64,000 nt of DNA from Haliotis asinina. Lineage: Eukaryota; Mollusca; Gastropoda; Lepetellida; Haliotidae. A model generated the notes under the pieces. The model saw nothing but the letters and a program-made list of their open reading frames with translations, was not told where the DNA came from and searched no databases. Numbering within the stretch: the stretch's first letter is position 1; every line of letters starts with the position of its first letter. The stretch is from assembly GCF_037392515.1 (NCBI RefSeq), contig NC_090288.1, positions 58,327,673 to 58,391,672 of the forward strand, given 5' to 3'. The translations under genes were made by a program, and so were the position numbers. Of the stretch, positions 10,201 through 27,099 are shown piece by piece.

Positions 10201-13200
10201 TCATCCATGTCCAGTGCTCTGACGCATGGCTCCATACGATGTAGACGGAAGCGACGCATGTTGAACGACGGCACATGTTGTTGTTGAAACGTTGTTGCTG
10301 ACTTAAATGCCATAGATAACATCTCAGGAATCATAGATATCGGAGGTATCGGTGGGAAGTGTATCAATGTCATCATCCTTCATCATATAGGTATTAGCTT
10401 CATTAGCGTCCTTGGCTGGTAAAGCTAAGTCAAGTCCATACATGATGACGCTCGATAATGTATCTCCTATAAGAGTCCACGGCTAAGGGGGGTGATGATT
10501 GTTGACAGCGCCTTCGATGAACCGGGGAGAGTGATGAAGACCTTCTGCGTTGATGAGTGAACCTGCGAGTGCACTCATGCGAGCGTGACTCCTCACTAGT
10601 GCGAGTGCACCCACGCAAGCGTGAATCCTCGCTCCTGAGAGTGCACTCACTCGGCGTGGTTGGATCTCTCTCTCGACTGGGATGTGAAGAGGGGGGTGCT
10701 AATGACGATCTTCCTCGAGTGTGTGCATACATGTCCTCTTCATCCTCTGGTGTGAGTGCCGCTCTAGGTGAACGCTCATGCCGAGCTGTAGTCAACGATG
10801 ATGACGAGTGCAGTCCTCTCTCCTCTTCTATATGCCACTCCATCAGATTCATCATCTGCGTTGTAAACTGTTGCATGAAGGTGGTTCATTGAAGATAAGT
10901 CGTTCATGTAGAGGGACGATGATTTCATCTTTGATGACTTCGACTTCTTTGGTTGAGACAGCCCTGCTTCTGAGGAAGATCTCTTCTGAGATACAGGGCA
11001 CGACACGCCGGACCCCAGACATAGCCCAGGAGAAACGCCTGACATTTCACTTAAATGAATCTCAGCAGACGTAGTTAACGAATTACCCGAATTTAAATCA
11101 CTTGTTTTAGACATGACTAATGCAAGCCGACATGGCTTGTCCCTAGCATGTCTGTAAACAGACCGTGTATGGAGAGTAAATTCCTAATCAGTAAATTCTA
11201 TGCAAAATTTACGACGATTATTAGTGTAACATGCTTCCTCATGTTGCTAGGCTACAAGGTGTTACATTTAACCTTATGTAACTGTGACTGCAAGGTACAC
11301 TGGTCAATATATCTACAGTTTCACAGCATACCTCTTGGTCTATAACATCCGTGATGTACCGAGCACTGAGCAGCGGAAGTCGGACATAGTTGAGCAGTTC
11401 AGGAAGACACTCACATCGACTCTCTCGGTCGTACTTGACCCAGTCGATCACCGCCTCAAACACAGGCTCCTCACAGTTCACCTGTAAACACACAGCAAGT
11501 TAAAACCTATGTGAAGCAAACAGAGACGGGTCAATGACCATGGCCATTTTCTAATATGAATTTGACACACAAAAGGTATATACATTAGTTTGAATTTGGT
11601 GCAGGACATCATATTTGAGTTGCTAAAATATTTCTTTACAGTTCTTTAAAAGATAAATTACTAAGCAATAATGGAGGAAAGTTGGGAGATGGAAGGGTAG
11701 ACAAGAAAATCAAGACAAGAGCATGTGAAATATTGATCAAAGTCATCTTATCATACATACTGGGACAGCACAGTGTTACTACCAAATTATTTCATAGTTA
11801 TACACTTTACAGAGATATAAAATGAAACTCTTTCACAAATGATGTCTTCCTTTCATACTGATAGATCATTTGTTGGAAATTTGATGTGGTAGCATAGTTA
11901 TCTCCCTTTAATCCATGGATACAAAATGGCATAACTGAACGTGGTCACTCTGACATTGTAATGTTTACCTTAGTGAGTAGAAAAAAAGGATCAGCAAATA
12001 CAATGCTGTGGAAAACAATAGACACAACTGCAGATAGCAAATTAGGTCGCTCAGACAGGTAGGACCGTTGATTAACGTGTCATGAAATGTGTGTGCTGCC
12101 TACAGGCACAAGGGATCATCCAGAAGACAACTTCTGCTCTTGTGTTGAATATGTCTCAGGTATTGACCAACATCTTACTTGTCTTTCTTTTATAAAGTTT
12201 ATGTTGAAATATGTAAACATGTTTGACACCCACAGGAAAGCTCAAATCAGCAATGTGTAAAATGTCTTAAAATATATAGGTGACATGACCACCTGAAGAT
12301 AGACAGGACTGGCTATTAGTTGTAAATTGTTATAACATGCAGTTATCTTCCCCTCAAAGATTATCTTATCTCGGCTGATATCTCTATCCCAAAACCTGGC
12401 CCAAACTGCCATCTGTGACACCCATCCTCGTTTTGCTTTTCACCTGCTTCTCTAATTCTAGTGACCCAATGGTAGCTACATCCTTAATAATTTCAGTACT
12501 AAAGTTATTCTTTATGTGAGCTATCGTTTATAATAGAGCTACATTTAATTTTAAAATGGGCATTTAAAAAGTGTTCTTTGTAATACAATATCATTGAACA
12601 AACATTTGCACAAAGTCATGGTCTGTTCCAAGTAAGTCTCATTGCTCCTTTCTGCACTATTATGTCCTCAGTGAATTCGTTCTTCTACCTGCTACCGAGA
12701 CTATAGTTAGGCTTAATGTAATTTAACAGATATTTCACACTTATACATAATAACTACATAAATTGTAGATAAAAATGAACACCCCCCTACCCATCACCCC
12801 CCAATATACTTTTGCTATTTTCTATAGTAGTTTAATACACCACACAATCTGCACTTCATTGACAAGGCATTTCATGAGGGTTCATCGACATCATGTCTAC
12901 CTGAAGTTCATCACTCTTAATTAATCTCTCAATCTCTGCCAAGGGAAGGGTCTTAAACTCCTCCTGTTGAACCACTTCCTCGAAATGATGAAGACTGTAC
13001 GACTCTGCAGCTTCCCATAATGCCTTGCAGCTGTGCTGCTCAGCAAATATTTTGATTCCAAGGCAATTTGAGGAGTCAAGCTGGTTTTCTAAGAAAGAAC
13101 AACATGCCTCTTTTACACCTGCAAGAAATAACGCATATCAAATATTTACCTTTTCATAATTGTGACAAAGATTTGACATGGACGAATAATTATCCAGTTC

Positions 13201-16200
13201 CTCGGCCACTGCAATAATTTGGAAATCACGAAATATGCATGCAATAAACCATATTCAGATATTCAGAAACTTGTCCTGATCATCTCCGGTGAACAGATAC
13301 TACACATACTGATCTAACAATTTCCAATGCATTGGGAAAATAAATTTGAGGATGAAAGATTTAGTTCTTACACTGTTGCAGGATAATATTTCATCTGATG
13401 TCTGTATTTCATGATATGGACAGACATCCTTTCACTGTTAAACATGGACATGTTTCCAATTGACAATAATTATACTAACATGCAGCTTGTTGTTTTCTAC
13501 AGTTTCAGCATGTCTCGTAGTGCCAGTTATCGCTCACAGTGGACATATAGATAATTATAGCTCAGAAATCGAACGTGATTGTAAAGCTCACCACAATACT
13601 CATGGGGGCAAATAACGAGACTATCATAGTCATGGGTTAATACTTGGATCTGGAAATCAAGGATACTTCTTGTTGAGGCATGCACACAAGTATTGTTTGT
13701 ATTGCAGTTTGACGAGTTGGGAACTGCACCAGTTGTTTACATGACATGTTTTGTTTATACTGAATATATATAGTGGAAGTTATCAAAACTGGCACCTGTC
13801 TAATCCAGCAAGTTGTAAACACTGGCATAAAATCTAAGTCCCTTCCATGGCTTGTACATTTATCATCAGCTCCACAATCTGGCACATTGCCTAAAATGGA
13901 TTATTTTTTCAGTCTTCCAATAAGCAGCAGATTAAAAAGCTACCACTGTACTGCTATTAGAGTGCGAAATAGTTTCCAAATTTGTCTGGCCAGTCGGGCT
14001 AGGCTTGCCAGAAAGTTACTAGCCCACAAAATAATACACTACCTCGAATATAGGACTGAAATAATACAGAAACAGATGAGAATAAGATATGACACAGGTT
14101 TCACCTGCTATTATGATGAAAATTTTCATCAGGCCATAATCTTACATGATTTAAAAGTGTATTATAACTTAGCAAGATGGAGTGAGAGATATATTTACAA
14201 AATGACCCCATAAAAATTCACCAGGCAGGCCAGTGACTGTATACAGTTATCTACTAGAAAGCTGCAACAAACATGCATCTGCACACAGTTACCTAATACA
14301 GAGCTGCAACAAGTATGCAGCTGTATACAGTTACCTCCTTCAGAGCTGCAACAAACATGCAGCTGTATACAGTTACCTCCTTCAGTGCTGTAACAAACAT
14401 GTAGCTGTTTACCTTTACCTAACACTGGCTTGCAACAAATATACACCTGGCAACAGTTACTTACCACTGAGCTGCAACAAACATGCATCTGTTTACCTTT
14501 ACCTAACACTGGCTTGCAACAAATATACACCTGGCAACAGTTACTTACCATTGAGCTGCAACAAACATGCATCTGTTTACCTTTACCTAACACTGGCTTG
14601 CAACAAATATACACCTGGCAACAGTTACTTACCATTGAGCTGCAACAAACATGCAGCTGGCAACAGTTACTTACCATTGAGCTGCAACAAACATGCAGCT
14701 GGCAACAGTTACTTACCATTGAGCTGCAACAAACATGCAGCTGGCAACAGTTACTTACCATTGAGCTGCAACAAACATGCAGCTGGCAACAGTTACTTAC
14801 CATTGAGCTGCAACAAACATGCAGCTGGCAACAGTTACTTACCATTGAGCTGCAACAAACATGCAGCTGGCAACAGTTACTTACCATTGAGCTGCAACAA
14901 ACATGCAGCTGGCAACAGCTCCTGGACGTTCTCCACACTGACATCCACTGTTTCTGTGTACACAAAGTCCAGGAGCTCTCTCATCACATCTGGGGATATC
15001 TCATGTAGCTCAATCACCGACTTGTCTCGCTCTGACATCTGCAAGGAGACAGTCACTTTGAACCTTGCAAATTTTGATGCATTTTCATGTTCTGCATGTG
15101 CTTGCATTTTGATGCATGGGTGATCACCATGGTTACCACATGACAATACTGTTGTGTTTCAGTCTTATTTCATGCTTAATGATCCAGTTTTTCATATCTG
15201 TTGCAAGTACCAAGCTCAGACTTCCAACATGTCATTGCTGTGTATGTGGCACAACTAAAAACTAAAAGGGATTACCCCCTTCACAATTATTACAAAAAAT
15301 GTGTAAAGTTTCTTCTTTTGTTGAGAATATATACTATAAAATGTATAACTCACACACACTGTTCACATATTTACCACATACCTATAAACAATAATGGACC
15401 ATTTTTCACATACAATACTGGCTCTTGGCACATCTCCATACTGGGCTGAAAATGCATGTCAGCCATATCAGCCCTAGGTCTGAAAATCCATATTAGTTGT
15501 ACTACCTGGCTACTAAACAGGTACAGAATGAATACATGCAAATGCTGGAAAAGTCAACAGACAGAGCCTAGTGTATTTTAGACATACTGTAATGTAATAA
15601 CCTCTTAGTATCACATATGAACTCTATTATATATATCTCAAACAATCCCAACACTTATAACATATGTTGTATTTGGGATAACCCATACAGGATTTAACCC
15701 ACACTATCAGAGTCAGGCACCTAATCGCCAGCACACAAAGTTAGCCGCCTAGCCCGCAAAGCCACCATCACTTCCACAAAAAATGAAAGTAGGACAGTCC
15801 CAACACGTGTCACAGTACTGACCTACTAACCTCATACCTACTGTGTCAACATATGCCTTATATACTCAGATGACATTGTCTTATCCTAAAGCAAGTTGAT
15901 ACAAATAAACATATATCAGTGTGTTTTGGGATGGTTAATATCCTGCATTAGGAATAAACATCGCATGTAGCAAGCCTTTAACCATCCCAAAACACACAAG
16001 TGTGATAACCTATTCATCATACAATGTCATTCTTACTTTTTAATCTAAAAGAAAAGGTGATTTCAATGCCACATATCATGAAACTAGACTTTGCAGAATG
16101 TCTACTACATCACAAATACGTGCGTAGAAATATTTATGTGACACAGCCAGTGAGATAGTTGTCTCTTGATCACTCAGCTGAGTGCGTTAGGTCATCTAGT

Positions 16201-18172: not shown

Positions 18173-18388
18173 CAAGAGTTAATGGACCCGTGAAGGTCCC
18201 GGGGTAGAATAGTCCATGAAAGGCGACTGTGCTTGTCGTAAGAGGTGACTAACGGGATCGGGTGGTCAGACTTGCTGACTTGGTTGACACATGTCATTGG
18301 TTACCAATAGTCGTTCTGCCTTTTTGGTTGTTGTAAGCGACATTTTAACCGGAAGTCGCCATTTTACCGGACAAGCGTCCCTAGCAAC

Positions 18389-21300
18389 ATGCCTGTGAAA
18401 CACTGCTGTCACGGCCTCTGTCGGTCTGATTCGCGGTATTTGAACTCGTCAAGCAGTGGCATCTTTTTCATACCATTCCCTAAACCTAGGACGAATTTAG
18501 AAAAATGTAAAAAGTGGATTTCTCTTTGCGGACGGAAGAATTTTACCATCGAAAAAGTCAGGAAGGAGACTTATATTTGCAGTCTGCACTTCATCGGAGG
18601 AAATGGACCAACTGAAGGTAATGATTCAAGTGCACTTTCAAATATCGTATTTGCATTTTCAGATTAAATCTGACTCTATGTAATTGACGACATGCTCATG
18701 TTTGAATGACCTTTTGTTTCATTGACAGAATATCCTGATCCTTTGTCAGCCTTGTCGCAAGATGTCCTACCACCGAAGGCACGAAATCCTAGGAAGAGAC
18801 TGAGGCTTCAACCAGTAAATTATTACGCTATTTGCTCTCCAAAAACGTTCTCATCAATATTTACATAGTAACATCATCATTGATTACATTTTATTCACTG
18901 AATATTATCACACTGATAATCACTAAAGTGCAGTAGCTATTTTAAAATTGAAATAATTTTCCTACATGCTGCTGGGTTCAACCATTCATAGAAGTTTTGT
19001 AGAATATTCATGTATTGCCTGAGTATTCCATTTTGACAATTATCCAGCAATGTAAACTAGTAGGGGTCTAAATTATTTGAGTTTATCTTCTCTTCATTAA
19101 AAAGGGCCCACTGCATGAACTCCAACTAAGTGTGCCTACCCCTGAGGAACAAGATGAACGGAACATAGTGCCAACACCACCATCTGAAAACTTCCATGAC
19201 TACTTTGAAGTTTTCAATGAAGATCATCAAGGTAAGTAGTCAAAGTAACTTGTCCTGATAAATCACAAAGCTAATTATCATTCTTTCTTGAAGTATAATA
19301 ATTTGATATTGGTCCAAATGTAATACTGTACTGATCAAATTGAAACATATTTGTTAATAGTGTATGTCTAATAGGTGATACACGTCTGCAGTTTTCCTTG
19401 TATGGAAAGCCAAGCTGCACTGATGAGTCCTGGCGGGACGAAACGTGGTAAAAAGAACAGAATGCAATTTGAAGTAACAGATTCATTGTAGTGAGTGAGT
19501 GAGTTAATATTTAACGTCACATCGGCAATATTTCAGCCATATCGTGACGAGAACAGATTGGAAATTGAAATGGGAAATGTGCATACTATATAAAAAAACT
19601 GTCTTCAAAGGACAGTAAAAGAACTAGAATATCACAGCTACGGATAAAACTAGTGTGGAACGGTAAAACTGATAGAACTATTTGGACAAGACAAGATAAA
19701 ACACGGGCTATACACATCACCAGCAGCTGAAGGTAGATCACCATGCCAGGGTCCATGGGGACTTACAGTACCTTTGCTACCTGCATGGACCCTGGCTGGA
19801 TTTACACCAGCGCTTCAGACACTGGCGATGATAGGACGATTTAGCCAGAATTTAAAACAACAAACACACTACGACTAAAAAGTATGGTTGAGCAAAATCG
19901 ACTTTGAAAGTTTTTGGGACTTACGTACCCTCTTGGGAGGACAATAATTTTACGCTACTTCAACCTCCCTCGAGGGCACAGCCACTAACGATCGCAGTTG
20001 CTAATTTACAATACCATGCATAAAAGATATATTATCTATGTACAAAACATATTCAGAATTTATGTAGCAATTCTATTTCCTTTAAAAATTCAAGTATTAA
20101 ATGATGATTAACGTTATAAAAAAGATCCTTTACAGTTTTCTCATTGAAATATTTATCCCTTGTGATGGCAAAATCAACACAATCAAGCAGGATATGCTTA
20201 ACAGTGATTCTCTCATCACAAGGGATACAAAACGGAGGATCCTCACCTTTTAACAAGTGTTCGTGAGTATATCGCGTATGGCCAATGCGACATCGTCGTA
20301 TAACAACCTCTTCAAATCTGGACTGACAACCCAAGTGGGTATAACCGATATAGGGCTTTATTCCATGTAATTTATTGATACCTACTTGGGTGTCCCACTT
20401 CTTTTGCATTAGATCACGGATATATGATCTTATGACAGCCTTATAATCAGAATAGGGTATGAGAAGTGGTGTCACAGATTTGTTGAGTGCTACCTTGGCA
20501 GCATGATCGGCCATTGTGTTACCAGAGATTCCAACATGGCTGGGTAACCAACAGAAGACGATGTCATATTGGCCAGTAGCAAGTTCATTATACAATTCAA
20601 CAATGTCAGCTAAAAGTGGATGCTGAGAAGATACATTTTTAATAGCCTGGAGGCATGAAAGAGAGTCTGAATAAATGATATATTGTTTATATTTAGAGTG
20701 TTTTTTAATATAGTTTAGGGCTGTTAATATGGCATGTGCTTCTGCTGTAAAAATGGAACTGCTATTTGGTAATCTAGAAGATATTGTTCTGGATCCAATG
20801 ACAGTAGCACAAGCAACTGCGCCACCATCCTTGGACCCATCTGTAAATAAGGATTTATATGTACTATACTTACTTTTTAATTGATTATATTCCTGTTTGT
20901 ATTGTAAGTCATTAGTTTCTGATTTTTTATATTTACTTAATGTAAGGTCAACTTGTGGTCTAACCAGTTGCCAAGGGGGAGAAGAAAACAAGCGAGAAGG
21001 AGCTATATTATCCAGCTCAATGCCAGCAGCAGAAAGAAAAGGTTTAACTCTCAGTCCAAGAGGCGGAACAAGAGAAGACATCTTATTGTACAAATCCCCA
21101 TACGGGGGATTGAAGACACAGTTATATGCAGGATTGGACTTATTTGAATACAGTTTAGTGAGATACTGTAAAGATAATTTAATACGACGGTGGCCAAGAG
21201 AAGGTTCGTCTGCTTCAACGTATAGACTGTCAACAGGAGAAGTTCGGAATGATCCAAGACAAAGTCTTAGACCTTGGTGATGGATAGAATCAAGTATTTT

Positions 21301-24300
21301 GAGGTTACTTTTACAGGCTCCACCATAGACAATGGAGCCGTAATCCAGTTTAGATCTGATGAGTGACCTGTATAAATGTAGGAGGGTTGTTTGGTCTCCT
21401 CCCCACTTTGTATTTGAAACGACTTTCAACAAATCGAGCGCCTTCAGGCATTTGGTTTTTAGGTATTTTATATGTGGCAGAAAAGTTAGGTGTGAGTCAA
21501 AGATGAGACCAAGGAACTTAGCTTCCTTGACAACTTTGATGGGTACACCATTTAAAAATAAGTCAGGGTCTTTATGAGGTTTGTATTTTCTGCAGAAGTG
21601 AATGCAGTTGGTTTTAGATTGAGAAAATTTAAACCCGTTCTCAAGGCACCATTTATGAATTTTGTTGAGACAGATTTGTAACTGTCTCTCAATGGTTCGC
21701 ATGTTTTTGCCACGACAAGAAATATTAAAGTCATCCACGAAAAGAGAACCATTGATTGAATCTGTTAAAACCTTTGAAAGACTATTTATTTTAATACTAA
21801 ATAAAGTCACAGACAAAATACTGCCTTGTGGAACACCCTGGTCCTGTTGGTAATGATCAGAGAGGGTAGACCCTACTCGGACTTGAAACTGTCTGCCCGT
21901 TAAAAACTGTGATATGAAATGAGGCAAACGACCCCGTAAACCAAATTCATGTAAATCTTTTAAAATACCATGTTTCCATGTGGTATCATAAGCCTTTTCA
22001 AGGTCGAAAAATATAGATACAGCATGCTGGTTATTAACAATAGAATTCTTAATGAAAGATTCCAATCGAACCAAATGGTCAATAGTGCTTCTGTTTTTAC
22101 GGAAACCACACTGAATGTTAGAAATCAGATCATTGGTCTCCAAATACCACACTAAACGATTATTTACCATTCGTTCCATAGTCTTGCAAACGCAGCTAGT
22201 TAATGATATAGGTCGATAATTAGATGCATCTGAATGGTCTTTACCAGGCTTAGGTATAGGAACCACAATAGCATTCCGCCAAGAGGGAGGGAATGTTCCT
22301 GAAGTCCAAATTTCATCAAATATGTCTAAAAGTACCTCAAGACATGAATCAGGCAAATGCTTCAAGAGCTGATAGTGAATATTATCAGCCCCTGTTGCTG
22401 TATCATGAGCTTGCACTAGAGCAGTTTGTAGTTCATGTAAGGAAAATACTTCGTTGTAGTCTTCACCATTGTCAGAGGTGAAATTAATGATTTTCTTTTC
22501 TTCTAACTTCTGGTACCTCTGGAATTCAGGAAGATAGTTTGATGAAGACGAATGTGTAGCTAATGTTTCACCAAGTTTGTTTGCAATATCTGAAGCATCT
22601 TCCAAAATGTGATCTCCGTCTTTAAGGTGTTTAACGCTTGTTTTGGAACCCTTGCCCTTGATCCTTTGTACCATATTCCACACCTTTGATATAGGTGTGC
22701 GGGAGTTAATCTTGGAGACATAGGCTCTCCATGACTTCCGTTTATTTTGCTTGAATGTACGTCGAGCTTTAGCTCTGGTTACTTTAACATTGTTCAAATT
22801 ATGTACAGTTGGATGTTTGCGAAAATATTTTTCCGCCTTCTTCCTGTTTTTCCTAACCTGTTTGCAATCGCCATCAAACCATGGCTTACGAATATGTGGA
22901 TGCACAGAGGACTTAGGAATTGTTTCGGTAGCTATAGTATGCAGTGTATCTGAAAACAATTGAATGGGGTCAGCAATATTTTGGAACGTTTCATGTTTGA
23001 GTTTCTCAGTACACAATGATGTGAATTTAGACCAGTTAGCCTTTGAAAAATTCCACCTTGATGAGGGTGGAACATCAGACGGGTTATTGACTGAGAGAAG
23101 TGTTGGGAAATGGTCACTTCCACATAAATCATCATGAACTGACCATGAAAATTCATTCAGAAGATCTGCATCTGTGAGTGTAACGTCCAAGGCAGAGTAG
23201 CTACCTGTAGCAGGGTGTAAATATGTGTGTGTACCATCATTAAATATGCAGAGACTGTTGTCAGAAATAAAATCTTCTATTATTTTCCCCTTGGTATTGA
23301 TAACATTACTCCCCCATAAAGGATTATGTCCATTCAAATCACCCATGAGTATGCAGGGATGAGGAAGCTGATCATACAGAGCTTGAAGGTCAGATTTCTG
23401 GAGGTTTGAAGATGGAGGGATATACAAAGAGCATAAAGTAAACGCAATGTGTAACGAAATCCGAACTGCAACAGCTTGAAGGTTAGTAGTGAGATCAACA
23501 GGGCTGTGTATTATACCCTGCCTCACCAAGATAGAGGAGCCTCCAGTGGCTTTGTCACCCGGAGGAGAAAAGGAATGGTGAGAGCTGTACTGACGTAAGT
23601 CAAATTTATCAGTCTGCTTAAGATATGTTTCCTGGAGACAGAAAACTGATGGTTGAACATCTTGTACTAATAATTGTATTTCATTTAAGTTGGTCCTAAG
23701 GCCTCTGCAGTTCCACTGGATAAGTGTATTATTCATGTTACATTAGGTGGTAACACAGGCGATCTGTTCCTGGACCGTGGCGAATGACTTTTTTGGCGCA
23801 CACGGTGATGAGGAGTGACATCCATATCTTCCAGAAGTTGATATCTATTAAATATTTGTACCGGATTCCGTTGACTCTTTGGAACCCGATCTGACTTTTT
23901 TGAATAGTTCACTGTCTTGCTAGCATTCACGATAACAGGTGATGGTGAACGAGATTGTGGACGGGATTGTGATGCTGTTTGCGTGGAAGCAACAGTTTGC
24001 ATTTCACACGTAGAATACGTCTCAGTATTCACCCAAGTGATTTCAGTCTGGCATTCAACTGATTTAACAGTCTTAGTACGTTGACGGGTAACAGCTGCAG
24101 AGTATGACACAGTTGCAACTGGAGTGTTGTCTTGTGCAACCAAACGTTTAGCCTCTGCGAAAGTAATGTTTCTTTCATGTTTAAGTTTCACTATCTGATG
24201 TTGTTGTTGCCAGACAGGGCAAGATTTTGATGAGGCAGCATGATCGCCAGAGCAATTAACGCATTTAGGGTTGTTTGGACAATCTAACGTGTCATGAGCA

Positions 24301-27099
24301 AGTTCTCCACAGCGATGACATTTCTTGCTGTTGGTACAAGATTTAGCACCATGACCAAACTTTTGACATGAGTAACACCGAAGCGGGTTCGGTATGTACT
24401 TATCAACATTGATATTGCAGTACCCTCTTTGATGGATGACGGTGGAACAGGAACAGAAAAGTTGAGCAGATACGTGTTTAAGTTTACAATCTGACCATTT
24501 TGCCGACTTGTAAAACGTTTTACACCTGTTACACCCTGGTCTTTTAGTTCAAACGCTATCTCATCTTCAGACATGTCTAGCAGACAACGTTCTCGGTCTC
24601 TGACAATGCCTTTAGAACTGTTGAGAGTTTTGTGTGGAGACACAGCAACAGGTACGGACACGAGATGCTTAACAGCTAAGAGTGTAGATGACTGAAACGC
24701 TGATTTGCATTCAAGTAATATAAGACCAGATCGCATCTTTTTCATTGACACAACGTCACCAGCAATGCCATAAATCGCTTTTGACAGGGCAAACGGATTC
24801 AGTTTCAACGGACCATCATCTGAAGAAGAAATCACTAAATAACGAGACCAATGGTCAGATTTGCCTTTGGAGACTGTGTCATCATCAGAAGATGAACTAT
24901 CCTCTAAAGTACGTTTGAGTTGTTTTGGGGGTATCATGGTAAAGTCATAGAACTTCATCATCCCAGCTCCCCACCCACCACGGAGTATCATAAAGACAAT
25001 GCTATATGCCAGTGGGTTTCCTACTGACAGCACCAAGGATACTGGGATGATATACTCCAGCAGAAGTATCAATTCAAGATCAATAAATCCACCAGATTGA
25101 CCCATGAGCCATCGCCTTCTGGGCATTAGACTCTAGGTAATAACGGTTTGGTTAATGTGGCATCAATATATCAATAGATATTACTGGTCTACAAGCTATA
25201 TGACAAAGGCCCATTTACAAAGATTTGAAAAAGTCAAATTTGAGCAAAAACAATGACAATGCTCAGGGCTTGGCATGACCAGCCGATTGGTTGAACCGGG
25301 CCTATTCAACCTCCCGTCTAGGTGAAGTCAGGGCCAAAGTGGTGTATTAGGCAACAGGAACACAGTTGCAGGGACCTATTGCCCTCAACCACCAGGATCC
25401 CTTCCTCCACCGACACGGGCCGCAACCCACGGCAAACGGGTTGGTGGACCAAATATCCCCCCGGGTCCACAACGGGGGTGTCGGCGAGCTCTTGGCGTTA
25501 CCCAGCACCCACCACAAGGAGGTGGCTCGCCACGGGTGCCAGATTCACTGTAACATGGATGAAGCATTGATATTAGATATTACAAGTTCACTTGTTTCAG
25601 ATGCAAGCACCACAGTGGATGCATGCACACAGACAGAAATTCACATGGATGATATGCTTAGGTACAGTGATGCAGAAATAAAAGAGCCCAGAATTCTGAA
25701 AAGGAATGATTTCATACGGACCATACAAAGTGATGATGACACCTGCAAATTCTATACAGGTACTTATTACAATATTAAATTCAATATGTGCTAGCTTTTT
25801 TGAAGTCTATCTTGTTAGTCCAAAATGGCATTCATAAATTTAACCAACATTTTTTAGACCTTTGGCATGGTAACCAAAAATCAACAGGGTCGTTTGTTGT
25901 TGGTAATTGTTGAAAATGGTAATCAATGCTGTTATAAGTAATCATTCTGAAAATATGTAAGAGAATAAATTATTTATATTTACACAGGTCTGACTACATC
26001 TCTTTTTACCATCATCCTGAATCTGTTGATGCCGAAAGCCAAGAAACTGAACTACTGGCGTGGATCGGACACTGGTGGCTTAACAGTAATTACATTAAAA
26101 TTTCCAATAGCTAAAATATCATCAAGGTAAGGGTGATGATGTTCATCACAGTGAAGGTTATCATAAGAAAGAAGCTCATTAGCTTGAGTGACTTGTTACA
26201 GTAGAGTGAAAAAAGCTGTATATCTAACAATCTAAAATGAATCACTTGGAAACCATTACTTCTGGTGAATGTTATTGAGTTTTAGACACATACTATGAAT
26301 GATGTAACATCTGTTTCAGGAGGACCATGCTCAAACACCTGGGAGGAGAGGACGTCCTCGGGTCTTGACCCTTACAGAGGAGTTACTTCTCACCTTAGCG
26401 AGGCTCAGACGGGGGTTTGACTCTGAAGTTTTAGCTTATCTATTCCAAATTGATAACTCGTCTGTCAGCAGAATTTTCACTACTTGGATTTCTTTTATGT
26501 ACCATGAACTTCAATTCCTAGTATCTTGGCCAACTCGGTATCAAGTAAATTCATGCTTACCTAAGTGCTTTAAATGTTTTCCTAAGACCAGAGTAATTAT
26601 TGACTGCACAGAATTTTTCATTCAAAAACCAAGTCTTGCTTCCTCTCAGAGAGTCACATGGTCCCAATACAAGCACCACAACACTGTAAAATCATTGGTT
26701 GCTATATCCCCCTCTGGTACATTTGTTTTTCTCTCAAATCTGTACACAGGTTCAAAATCAGACAGGAAGATTGTCCAACAATCTGGTTTCCTAGACAAAC
26801 TTGAGTACGGAGATGACATCATGGCTGACAGAGGGTTTTTAATACGTGATTTACTTACTAAAAGAATGTGCACTCTTAACATACCACCATTTTCTATGGG
26901 TAAGCAGTTGAAATCAAAAGCAGTAGCTAAGACAAGGAGAATTGCCAGTTCACGCATTCATGTTGAACGTGCCATAGGAAGGCTTAAAAAGTTTCAGATC
27001 TTTCAAAGAGTTATTCCACTCAGACTTAAGAGTATTTTGGATCAAATGCAATTTGTATGTGCAGCACTGTGCAACCTCGACAAGAAACTTGTGAAATAA
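18389..27099 (+). CDS. THAP-domain DDE transposase, exons split by a LINE
   Basis: Exons recognised: 18389-18617 (THAP zinc finger, C-x3-C at CHGLC, FFIPFPKP, KKWISLCGR, C-x2-H at CSLHF), 18729-18814, 19105-19231, about 25541-25759, 25988-26085 and 26320-27099. Phases join except between 19231 and the exon near 25541, where the true junction is unresolved. The last exon holds a DDE_Tnp_4-like (Harbinger-related) core: VIIDCTEFFIQKP, then GDDIMADRGFLI, then RIASSRIHVERAIGRLK, giving D, D and E. The segment RGRPRVLTLTEELLLTL with DNSSVSRIFTTWISF resembles an HTH. Known role: binds the element ends and cuts and joins DNA. A full-length I-type LINE lies in the unresolved interval, so this copy is probably not expressed normally. 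The catalytic exon itself is open over 260 codons. Confidence 0.85.
19381..19447 (+). ncRNA. hammerhead ribozyme, complete consensus core
   Basis: Stem III strands CACG (19381-19384) and CGTG (19444-19447) pair fully. The cleavage dinucleotide is TC at 19385-19386, giving cleavage after C19386. Stem I pairs TGCAG (19387-19391) with CTGCA (19415-19419); an upper part pairs TTTTCC with GGAAAG, leaving a CCAAG bulge. The core CTGATGA is at 19420-19426. Stem II pairs GTCC with GGAC around a TGGCG loop, and GAAA is at 19440-19443. All invariant core bases, including the G-C pair at the base of stem II, are present. The outer stem is III, so this is the type III permutation. It lies inside the DNA transposon, 31 bp before the LINE target duplication. 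Activity is inferred from the match, not shown. Confidence 0.85.
20053..23736 (-). CDS. LINE ORF2: endonuclease, reverse transcriptase, RNase H
   Basis: An uninterrupted 1227-residue frame. Apurinic-type endonuclease in about residues 1-225 (WNCRGLRTN, QETYL, MGDLNGHNPLWGS, GSDHFPTL). Reverse transcriptase in about 480-750 (IPKPGKDHSDASNYRPISL, FFDLEKAYDTTW, QGVPQGSILS, and FVDD in place of the usual YADD). RNase H in about 960-1085 (SLFTDGSKDGG, FTAEAHAILTAL, YSDSLSCLQAI, WLPSHVGISGNTMADHAAK). Near the C-terminus lies a Cys/His cluster, CIPCDERITVKHILLDC. The start overlaps the ORF1 stop as ATGA (23733-23736), which suggests reinitiation coupling. The frame looks whole, so the copy is young. 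Confidence 0.95.
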   Translation of the reverse strand: MNNTLIQWNCRGLRTNLNEIQLLVQDVQPSVFCLQETYLKQTDKFDLRQYSSHHSFSPPGDKATGGSSILVRQGIIHSPVDLTTNLQAVAVRISLHIAFTLCSLYIPPSSNLQKSDLQALYDQLPHPCILMGDLNGHNPLWGSNVINTKGKIIEDFISDNSLCIFNDGTHTYLHPATGSYSALDVTLTDADLLNEFSWSVHDDLCGSDHFPTLLSVNNPSDVPPSSRWNFSKANWSKFTSLCTEKLKHETFQNIADPIQLFSDTLHTIATETIPKSSVHPHIRKPWFDGDCKQVRKNRKKAEKYFRKHPTVHNLNNVKVTRAKARRTFKQNKRKSWRAYVSKINSRTPISKVWNMVQRIKGKGSKTSVKHLKDGDHILEDASDIANKLGETLATHSSSSNYLPEFQRYQKLEEKKIINFTSDNGEDYNEVFSLHELQTALVQAHDTATGADNIHYQLLKHLPDSCLEVLLDIFDEIWTSGTFPPSWRNAIVVPIPKPGKDHSDASNYRPISLTSCVCKTMERMVNNRLVWYLETNDLISNIQCGFRKNRSTIDHLVRLESFIKNSIVNNQHAVSIFFDLEKAYDTTWKHGILKDLHEFGLRGRLPHFISQFLTGRQFQVRVGSTLSDHYQQDQGVPQGSILSVTLFSIKINSLSKVLTDSINGSLFVDDFNISCRGKNMRTIERQLQICLNKIHKWCLENGFKFSQSKTNCIHFCRKYKPHKDPDLFLNGVPIKVVKEAKFLGLIFDSHLTFLPHIKYLKTKCLKALDLLKVVSNTKWGGDQTTLLHLYRSLIRSKLDYGSIVYGGACKSNLKILDSIHHQGLRLCLGSFRTSPVDSLYVEADEPSLGHRRIKLSLQYLTKLYSNKSNPAYNCVFNPPYGDLYNKMSSLVPPLGLRVKPFLSAAGIELDNIAPSRLFSSPPWQLVRPQVDLTLSKYKKSETNDLQYKQEYNQLKSKYSTYKSLFTDGSKDGGAVACATVIGSRTISSRLPNSSSIFTAEAHAILTALNYIKKHSKYKQYIIYSDSLSCLQAIKNVSSQHPLLADIVELYNELATGQYDIVFCWLPSHVGISGNTMADHAAKVALNKSVTPLLIPYSDYKAVIRSYIRDLMQKKWDTQVGINKLHGIKPYIGYTHLGCQSRFEEVVIRRCRIGHTRYTHEHLLKGEDPPFCIPCDERITVKHILLDCVDFAITRDKYFNEKTVKDLFYNVNHHLILEFLKEIELLHKF
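23733..24961 (-). pseudogene. LINE ORF1, nucleic-acid-binding protein, one frameshift
   Basis: The likely start is one of the ATGs at 24961, 24958 or 24937 (MIPPKQLKRTLEDSSSSDDD). An acidic Ser-rich N-terminus is followed by a folded region and then three zinc knuckles: CYSCQKFGHGAKSC, CHRCGELAHDTLDC and CVNCSGDHAASSKSC. The frame changes once near 24426, between the SSIKEG segment and the knuckles, so the product is interrupted in this copy. Downstream the frame is open through KLKHERNITFAEAKRLVAQD to the stop at 23733. The knuckles are typical of I-group ORF1 proteins that bind the LINE RNA. Confidence 0.85.

Follow-up and report, generated by a model that had tools for sequence, protein, structure and literature searches.

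The hammerhead ribozyme found in the 64,000-nt window of Haliotis asinina DNA (the window being the whole stretch analysed) is probably a transferred copy of a 3'-UTR ribozyme predicted to cut the transposase mRNA of Merlin-type DNA transposons, a 67-nt copy of which reached the intron of an ISL2EU-like transposon. The conserved home of this module, 3' of the Merlin transposase ORF, was missed by the earlier note on the same DNA, and the interpretation given there was partly supported.

The pattern check confirmed, base for base, the complete type III hammerhead that the note had placed at 19381..19447 of the plus strand (67 nt, with stem III open), and a strict type III scan of both strands of the window returned this interval as its sole match. 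The parts of the motif were assigned as follows:

19381-19384 / 19444-19447, plus strand: stem III, CACG/CGTG (from the sequence)
19385-19386, plus strand: U16.1 and C17 (consensus homology, RF00008 alignment)
between 19386 and 19387, plus strand: predicted self-cleavage, 19387 being the first nucleotide of the 3' product (hammerhead consensus homology)
19387-19391 / 19415-19419, plus strand: stem I, TGCAG/CTGCA, 5 bp
19393..19408, plus strand: capping hairpin on stem I, TTTCC (19393-19397) with GGAAA (19404-19408) (sequence and predicted fold)
19409..19434, plus strand: predicted tertiary contact (pseudoknot) between GCCA of the stem-I bulge (19409-19412) and UGGC of loop II (19431-19434)
19420-19426, plus strand: core CTGATGA
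19427-19430 / 19436-19439, plus strand: stem II, GTCC/GGAC
19440-19443, plus strand: core GAAA

The core pattern gave no matches in 100 shuffles and none in viral contigs. The Rfam RF00008 (Hammerhead_3) covariance model, a check that had been proposed in the note, scored the window copy at 37.7 bits (E 9.6e-7 on 401 nt), which is below the Rfam gathering score of 48.5, with a significant E-value; the extended forms presumably score lower because the Rfam model carries the short stem I of plant agents. A chance motif was ruled out by the shuffles, the strict scan, the genomic RF00008 matches and 38 genomic relatives. The folding energy of the isolated window ribozyme was not unusual (z -0.81; 43 of 200 shuffles folded equally well). 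From its sequence we regard the feature as an authentic extended, pseudoknotted type III hammerhead, which is predicted to be catalytic.

The carrier in the window was identified by Pfam as a THAP/DDE_Tnp_4 transposon of the ISL2EU-like type, both domains being found in the window, as the note had proposed. Its features are listed below:

18305, plus strand: approximate left end of the transposon (similarity of nine other copies begins at 18301-18306)
18389..18667, plus strand: THAP-domain exon, as an ORF from ATG (Pfam THAP 4.3e-10)
19105..19231, plus strand: transposase exon 2 (donor GTAAGT directly after)
19232..25600, plus strand: transposase intron, containing the ribozyme and the nested LINE (acceptor CTTGTTTCAG ends at 25600; in-frame join)
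25601..25759, plus strand: transposase exon 3
26308..27099, plus strand: transposase catalytic ORF, HTH_Tnp_4 and DDE_Tnp_4 (Pfam DDE_Tnp_4 9.6e-46)
about 19491..25540, minus strand: LINE inside the intron (breakpoints against copies without the LINE)
20053-23742, minus strand: LINE ORF with endonuclease, RT and RNase H (Pfam RVT_1 5.1e-36, RNase_H 8.8e-13)
19479-19490 / 25541-25552: LINE target duplication, 12 bp, 11 of 12 bases alike

The ISL2EU gene set, a THAP and DDE_Tnp_4 transposase plus a YqaJ nuclease ORF, was represented further by a YqaJ match (6.7e-18) that copy L010 carries on its opposite strand. No clear TIR pair was present among the inverted repeats listed for the element. As the note had it, 31 nt separate the ribozyme from the LINE insertion, counted to the start of the target duplication. 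The transposase exons, which had been said to fail to join at this place, join in frame (exons 2 and 3, ...NEDHQ-DASTTVDACTQTE...); the ribozyme is intronic, and it is the intron that the LINE interrupts. The suggestion that the transposon family carries the ribozyme in its transposase pre-mRNA was borne out: among 12 genomic places matching exon 2 and the intron, the ribozyme was full-length in 10, reduced to a remnant in one and lost to a deletion in one. The deletion, in L044, the only copy without the ribozyme, covers both the ribozyme place and exon 3, and L044 is therefore uninformative as an empty site. The ribozyme core was intact in 8 of the 10 full-length copies (L001, L002, L003, L004, L005, L006, L007 and L008) and broken in two (L009 and L010). 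The comparison of L010 with L004 (ribozyme 59/67, flank 178/203) gave no sign of selection on the ISL2EU ribozyme.

The search of the 1.14-Gb genome, in which Egg_lysin matches point to an abalone and from which alone the family is described, yielded the 38 related places, comprising 10 with ISL2EU-like flanks (the window included), one remnant and 27 sharing the ribozyme only. Twenty-six of the latter sit in recognisable Merlin-type elements; the exception is L032, in which neither a transposase nor a TIR is visible; it has about 89-111 nt in common with Merlin subfamily C and L034 and is probably an old Merlin relic. The module common to the two unrelated transposons measures exactly 67-70 nt, with nothing shared outside it. 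A query with the Merlin ribozyme recovered the same family and one partial place on C4. The genome search with RF00008, in which 68 of 161,695 first-look candidates were scored, gave six matches at E<=1 (best 2.3e-6), all within this family and the window copy not among them; the best score was 46.3 bits, and no scored copy reached the cut-off of 48.5. A search for type I hammerheads with RF00163, in which 73 of 132,072 candidates were scored, gave no strong match (best E 0.23).

Random mutation of the core in other copies, which the note had named as evidence against its claim, was not seen: the core was kept in 16 of 22 aligned rows and broken in six. L019, scored as core-intact, carries an additional base after GAAA. 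This alignment leaves out L002, L003, L005, L008, L014, L028, L042, L043 and ten array copies, L020 being the array representative. The natural core mutants were G8A, G12A (L030) and A6G. The loops were GCCA and UGGC in the window, GCCA and UGGU in Merlin subfamily A, and ACCA and UGGU in subfamilies B and C, with a stem II of 4-5 bp; the variable pair of the pseudoknot was A-U in 11 of the 22 rows, G-U in five, G-C in four, unpaired in one and gapped in one. Covariation within the ribozyme was weak. The observed share of pairs was reached by 76 of 500 shuffles, the count of two-sided pair changes by 280, the pair types by 254, the cells changed on both sides by 18 and the covariation score by 13; the alignment is too conserved for covariation to decide on the structure.

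The Merlin assignment is based on the IS1016/IS1595-type DDE transposase (Pfam DDE_Tnp_IS1595 1.5e-21 in L017 and 2.5e-20 in L030) and on the element ends. Of the 17 loci scanned, nine had the TIR motif (at most three mismatches) at each end, and they were flanked by 8-bp direct duplications, read by eye, which were exact in eight loci and agreed at 7 of 8 bases in L033. Merlin elements are characterised by TIRs and by target duplications of 8-9 bp. In all 26 Merlin-type places the ribozyme is on the sense strand and follows the transposase. The module sits about 0.2-0.4 kb inward from the right end of the element. The transposase match was on the same strand and 5' of the ribozyme in 13 loci and also adjoined all 11 copies of the C15 array. 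The predicted cut lies 64 nt 3' of the stop codon in subfamily B, 52 nt in subfamily C and at a variable distance in subfamily A (139 nt in L011, 150 nt in L033; the L019 frame reads through the ribozyme). Intact 396-aa transposase frames together with a full ribozyme core were found in L017 and L018, and the full core also in the other four subfamily B copies (L013, L014, L016 and L027). In the C15 array, all 11 copies have G8 changed to A, and neighbouring ribozymes are separated by 2.5-3.1 kb or more of sequence that includes fragments of the Merlin transposase. In 5 of 7 copies, none of AATAAA, ATTAAA, AGTAAA and TATAAA occurs in the interval that extends from 80 nt 5' to 420 nt 3' of the core; a single poly(A)-type signal precedes the right end of L033. 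No ribozyme was found in the one copy examined of another Merlin family (transposase 53% identical).

The Merlin ribozyme has changed more slowly than the adjacent coding sequence. Identities, counted for the ribozyme without gap columns, were 56/61 (92%) against 578/789 in the CDS for subfamilies B and C (one-sided Fisher P 0.0004), 56/63 against 518/725 for A and B (P 0.001) and 54/61 against 533/725 for A and C (P 0.005). At fourfold codon sites, B and C (L017-L030) were identical at only 52 of 128 positions (41%). The difference between 92% and 41% identity indicates that the Merlin ribozyme is under selection.

A competing hairpin, P0, was recognised immediately upstream of the cut. Its 3' strand terminates at the cleavage base C17 and uses the stem III strand, and P0 and the ribozyme are therefore mutually exclusive. 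In 16 copies, a count made without L013 (5' strand missing), L032 (P0 missing), the degraded L042 and ten copies of the array, 8-12 of the 12 pairs are Watson-Crick, one pair being C-G in ten copies, U-A in five and mismatched in one. P0 begins 8-11 nt past the stop codon in subfamilies B and C; in subfamily A, a G-U pair could lengthen it one base beyond the cut. L043 retains an intact P0 beside a degraded ribozyme (51.8 bits). Among the 14 ribozyme-only loci scored, to which L033 does not belong, the upstream pairing was equalled by none of 300 shuffles in ten loci and by few in L013 (1/300), L020 (2/300) and L034 (6/300); it was absent in L032 (300/300). The best upstream pairing of the ISL2EU copies was matched by 56 (L001) and 26 (L010) of 300 shuffles. 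In the five Merlin copies folded (L014, L017, L030, L031 and L011), the predicted minimum of the full-length form was the P0 form, and the predicted 5' product ended in P0; the isolated ribozyme was predicted to fold otherwise in L030 and L031 and with a different stem I in L017. Cleavage could be rare in vivo, because the predicted minimum of the longer transcripts is the P0 form.

The sequence itself shows the motif, where its copies lie and how they are oriented, the TIRs and TSDs, the conservation and the complementarity of P0; from these data we infer catalysis, an effect on the transposase level, a role for P0 and a direction of transfer. The module would have its selected home in the Merlin-type element, on the sense strand downstream of the transposase ORF, where the hammerhead would cut the transposase mRNA after the stop codon. 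The 5' product would retain the entire ORF and shed the downstream tail, and its new 3' end, at C17, would close with P0. Before the cut P0 may gate cleavage; after the cut it may block re-ligation and cap the 3' end. The Merlin element would in this way set the amount of its full-length transposase mRNA. The 67-nt copy now in the ISL2EU-like intron, closest to Merlin subfamily A, would be a transferred one; the window holds one ISL2EU copy of the module, with no significant P0, and it may be a passenger.

A neutral-passenger status of the ISL2EU-like ribozyme, with a single capture in the intron followed by copying along with the transposon and no function there, is compatible with the Merlin explanation, and we rate it slightly above even. 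The L010 ribozyme changes no slower than its flank, two of ten cores are broken and P0 is not significant in these copies; on the other side, eight cores are intact, and a sense-strand intronic ribozyme could still cut the pre-mRNA. A decayed Merlin insertion inside the ISL2EU intron is a possible route, against which no TIR was seen by eye near the window ribozyme. The insertion of a small ribozyme-bearing retroelement, which the note had offered as its other option, is not favoured: no direct duplication or repeat was seen around the 67 nt, no retroelement feature was seen at the window ribozyme, and 26 of the 27 other copies reside in Merlin-type DNA transposons. Nor does the ribozyme belong with the retrozymes, defined by at least two tandem ribozymes bounding a 150-1000 nt unit together with retroelement features, given the one ribozyme in the window and the wide spacing in the C15 array.

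It is rather unlikely that a retrozyme-like, HDV-like or other RNA-borne module entered Merlin and ISL2EU separately, the transposons being mere hosts. The sharp limits of the shared 67-70 nt would suit such a module, as would the occurrence of the same architecture in HDV-like circRNAs of toad and termite and, isolated, in insect genomes (PMC7936874) and the spread of metazoan retrozymes as small RNAs (PMC7229834). However, all but one of the non-ISL2EU places fall in one recognisable Merlin clade, the module was nowhere seen as a stand-alone insertion flanked by a duplication of its own, the candidates scored included no strong hammerhead of type I, and the position 3' of the transposase and P0 persist across subfamilies in which fourfold similarity is nearly lost. 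An RNA-borne origin in the distant past is still conceivable. We consider it very improbable that the sequence is kept for a DNA-level reason, such as transposase binding near the right end, instead of RNA cleavage. The location within a DNA transposon, close to that end, is the point in its favour, whereas conservation falls on the core and stems of the hammerhead, the pair between loop II and stem I varies among A-U, G-U and G-C, the 3' strand of P0 stops at the cleavage base, and an unrelated transposase family has the module inside an intron. The Merlin 3'-UTR ribozyme is the reading that we prefer.

"Atypical" type III hammerheads have been described in HDV-like circRNAs and, as isolated motifs, from the genomes of termites and flies; they have a 5-bp stem I, an internal loop or bulge GCCR, a capping hairpin and a loop II YGGC that pairs with the GCCR. 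The genomic copies in termites are reported to stand alone, the 2 kb around them containing no recognisable ORF (PMC7936874). The abalone ribozymes share stem I length, the GCCR-type bulge, the capping hairpin, the YGGC-type contact and encoding in invertebrate genomes, but their carriers are identified DNA transposons and stem II has 4-5 bp, against 6 bp there. They share type III topology, core and cleavage triplet with plant LTR retrozymes and satellite RNAs (RF00008), and differ in stem I, in lacking an LTR, a PBS/PPT, a dimer and a circular RNA genome, and in being carried by an animal DNA transposon. Like the metazoan type I hammerheads (non-LTR retrozymes, Penelope-like elements/terminons, SMalpha), they are animal mobile-element hammerheads; unlike those, they are type III, and because their carrier is mobilised as DNA, there is no RNA copy intermediate for the ribozyme to serve. 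Mammalian Clec2 genes have a type III hammerhead 3' of the stop codon as well, although that one is discontinuous (PMC6155905), whereas the present one is continuous (61-67 nt), belongs to a mobile-element gene, competes with P0 and is conserved across transposon subfamilies. Intronic hammerheads of protein genes, as in the window, are known in amniotes (type I) and Schistosoma mucin genes (PMC6155905, PMC2576457), there in host genes and here, as type III, in a transposase intron.

In the cited literature, hammerheads encoded in genomes are associated with retroelements, with RNA circles or with a small number of host genes, and those of the extended type III in termite genomes have no assigned carrier; the literature searched contained none located in a DNA transposon. 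The Merlin hammerhead motif is a strongly conserved, built-in part of an animal cut-and-paste transposon. RNA-based replication cannot explain it, which makes it a directly testable case of a ribozyme selected on a protein-coding mRNA. The system provides copies that are recent and intact, naturally mutated cores that can serve as controls and, at the cut site, a hairpin that competes with the ribozyme. Merlin is also a candidate for the missing carrier of the orphan extended type III motifs in invertebrates, and a 67-nt RNA, catalytic by prediction, is common to unrelated transposon superfamilies. A bolder proposal, which we put forward as speculation and think unlikely to hold in full, is that Merlin has a fold-gated ribozyme switch limiting its own transposase: in subfamilies B and C, where P0 hides the 5' strand of stem III, the terminating ribosome would open P0, the hammerhead would form, the mRNA would be cut and P0 would re-form as a 3' cap. 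The orphan extended type III hammerheads of invertebrate genomes, perhaps including those of HDV-like agents, would then trace to such DNA transposons, which would also hand the module to unrelated transposons. If this were true, translation itself would end the transposase message.

A canonical type III hammerhead of 67 nt was identified at 19381-19447 on the plus strand by sequence reading and a motif scan of the window. The claim of the earlier note was thus borne out, with an Rfam Hammerhead_3 score of 37.7 bits (E 9.6e-7, 401 nt searched). The default Rfam scan of the window listed no entry, because this score falls under the curated cut-off of 48.5. The hammerhead core pattern had no matches in 100 shuffled windows. 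Stem I (TGCAG/CTGCA) was followed by the 3'-side bulge GCCAAG and a capping hairpin; GCCA of this bulge is complementary to UGGC of loop II and may pair with it.

The domain search identified a THAP exon and a DDE_Tnp_4 catalytic ORF in the DNA transposon that carries the ribozyme, and revealed a YqaJ ORF on the opposite strand in a related copy (L010). We take these three to be the ISL2EU gene set. The earlier note held that the transposase exons fail to join; this was not the case for the following two.
19105-19231, plus strand: transposase exon 2, joined in frame to exon 3
25601-25759, plus strand: transposase exon 3, joined in frame to exon 2
Since these exons join in frame, the window ribozyme is intronic, and its surroundings are reinterpreted as an intron of a predicted ISL2EU-like transposase gene. 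A minus-strand LINE interrupts this intron, with a 12-bp target duplication alike in 11 of 12 bases. The LINE insertion is bordered at 19490-19560 by a GTGAGTGAGTGAG... sequence, a motif known from abalone repeats.

The domain search also revealed two further ORFs, which suggest a Kelch-like gene.
12856-13137, minus strand: BACK ORF
14877-15158, minus strand: BTB ORF
A 42-bp minisatellite of about 16 copies (14260-14918) touches the BTB exon ORF.

The genome spans 1.14 Gb in 159 contigs, and its six Egg_lysin matches (best 2.9e-12) suggest an abalone, this family being a marker of abalone-type gastropods. It was searched for relatives of the ribozyme with a 141-base query, which matched at least 38 places: 10 with ISL2EU-like transposon flanks (L001-L010, 90-100% identical), one partial match (L028) and 27 sharing the ribozyme alone (82-97% identical). 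A query built on one ribozyme-only place returned the same family and one partial place. These counts are lower bounds, as similarity searches score the best candidates only. An intron query found 12 places, namely the 10 flanked copies, L028 and an ISL2EU-like place with a deletion at the ribozyme site (L044); the ribozyme therefore belongs to the ISL2EU-like family, as the earlier note had proposed in its first alternative. A search for type I hammerheads gave two weak matches (best E 0.23) among the 73 of 132,072 candidates scored.

Among the ribozyme-only places, an IS1595-type DDE transposase match lay just upstream on the same strand at 12 separate loci and in 11/11 copies of an array on contig C15. 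Both TIRs were present in 9 of the 17 loci scanned, accompanied by 8-bp direct duplications (exact in eight; 7/8 bases in L033, by eye), which we take to be Merlin hallmarks. The loci were assigned to subfamilies A (L011, L012, L019, L033), B (L013, L014, L016, L017, L018, L027) and C (L015, L020 with the C15 array, L029, L030, L031). L013 (approximately L013:1235-1862), with both TIRs and the 8-bp duplication, is an internally deleted, non-autonomous Merlin of roughly 0.6 kb that lost the transposase and kept an intact hammerhead core. L027 resembled subfamily B across about 600 nt, and L034 resembled subfamily C (231 nt, 75%) and had a TIR-like right end; L032 was too decayed for assignment. 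Merlin-type elements are thus the carriers at 26 of the 27 ribozyme-only places (all but L032). L042 and L043 are degraded relatives of subfamily C with ribozyme remnants. The predicted cut falls 64 nt past the stop codon in subfamily B (L016, L017, L018) and 52 nt past it in subfamily C (L030, L031). In subfamily A, the predicted cut follows the first stop by 139 nt (L011) or 150 nt (L033), and the transposase frame of L019 reads through the ribozyme.

The C15 array (G000:C15:40557756-40606632, L021-L026) holds 11 Merlin transposase fragments with ribozymes in about 49 kb, spaced mostly at 2.5-3.1 kb with two longer gaps and interleaved with another ORF family. Its ribozymes all have a core broken by G8A, and U16.1 is also changed in three. 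From its sequence, the array is a satellite-like amplification of the transposon. A second Merlin family, with recently active-looking 363-aa open frames, encodes a transposase 52-53% identical.
Second Merlin family copies: G000:C5:12523720, C4:46686302, C1:79635041, C16:8269473, C13:31375243, C13:31402499
At the single copy of this family inspected (L041, 53% identical transposase), roughly 1 kb of downstream sequence contained no ribozyme.

Between the Merlin subfamilies, ribozyme identity with gap columns excluded was 56/61 (B versus C), 56/63 (A versus B) and 54/61 (A versus C), and flanks of 56-60 nt aligned at 50-65% with 4-44 gap columns. Transposase DNA was less conserved than the ribozyme, at 71-75% identity (one-sided Fisher P 0.0004, 0.001, 0.005), the CDS in two of the three comparisons being that of another copy of the same subfamily. 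Fourfold codon sites of L017 and L030 were identical at 52/128. The core was intact in 16 of 22 aligned rows, including L019 despite an extra base after GAAA, and L017 and L018 combine intact cores with intact 396-aa transposase frames. Apart from the array, natural mutants with broken cores were L030 (G12 changed), L029 (G12 lost), L009 (A6G), L010 (C3U) and L034 (U16.1 changed). Covariation within the ribozyme was weak because so little sequence varies (13 to 280 of 500 shuffles reached the observed values of five measures). The variable pseudoknot pair was A-U in 11 of the 22 rows, G-U in five, G-C in four, unpaired in one and gapped in one.

The Merlin copies also contain a 12-nt stretch complementary to the 12 nt ending at the cleavage base C17, forming a predicted hairpin (P0) that would compete with stem III. 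Each of 16 copies counted had 8-12 Watson-Crick pairs; the tenth was C-G in 10 and U-A in five (those of subfamily A plus L043), with a mismatch in L016. P0 starts 8-11 nt past the stop codon in subfamilies B and C, where homology served to place the stops of L015 and L029, and in subfamily A a possible G-U pair stretches it one base beyond the cut. Upstream pairing was compared with 300 shuffles per locus at 17 loci, of which 14 ribozyme-only loci were scored and L033 was unscorable. No shuffle was as good in 10 of the 14 (L011, L012, L019, L016, L017, L027, L015, L029, L030, L031), and one, two and six were in L013, L020 and L034; L032 gave no P0 signal (300/300). P0 was not significant in two ISL2EU-like copies (56 and 26 of 300). 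Five Merlin copies were folded (L014, L017, L030, L031, L011); in each, the predicted minimum of the full-length stretch was the P0 form and the predicted 5' product ended in P0. Hence P0 and the ribozyme are, in these models, mutually exclusive. For the ribozyme folded in isolation, the prediction gave the hammerhead stems in L001, L014 and L011 and did not give them fully in L017, L030 and L031.

The ISL2EU-like ribozyme has a 4-bp outer stem III without significant P0, and in the most diverged copy it changed no slower than its flank (59/67 versus 178/203 identical). It may be a passenger there.

In the accessible text of earlier papers, animal retroelements carry type I hammerheads, and most type III motifs belong to plants, to the RNA circles of plants and to some HDV-like agents (PMC7761336, PMC7229834). 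Passages on host genes describe a type III motif in the Clec2 3' UTR and intronic type I motifs (PMC6155905); mucin genes of Schistosoma also have hammerheads in their introns (PMC2576457). In PMC7936874, termite genomic hammerheads are described as isolated motifs without a recognisable ORF within 2 kb, and further work on fly genomes is announced; stem II of the motifs published there has 6 bp, compared with 4-5 bp here. The pseudoknot contact is already known from passages of PMC3088659 and PMC7936874. A hammerhead inside a DNA transposon was not recognised in titles and abstract starts of a mostly open-access set of papers, or reported in the passages of PMC8490949, PMC6431247, PMC8704543 and PMC6515669.

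A Merlin transposon with intact copies thus has a conserved type III hammerhead on the sense strand, downstream of the transposase ORF. It would cut the transposase mRNA and part the ORF from its downstream tail, with P0 competing before the cut and then capping the cut end. No AATAAA-type signal was found between -80 nt and +420 nt around the core in five of seven copies; that of L011 falls beyond the right end, and L033 has one inside the element. The net effect could be a decrease in transposase through tail loss or a stabilisation through the hairpin-capped end. We favour down-regulation by the ribozyme, because DNA transposons commonly benefit from limiting their own enzyme. The finding exceeds the claim of the earlier note: an extended type III hammerhead is maintained by selection as a part of Merlin DNA transposons, and a second transposon superfamily has it in common with them.
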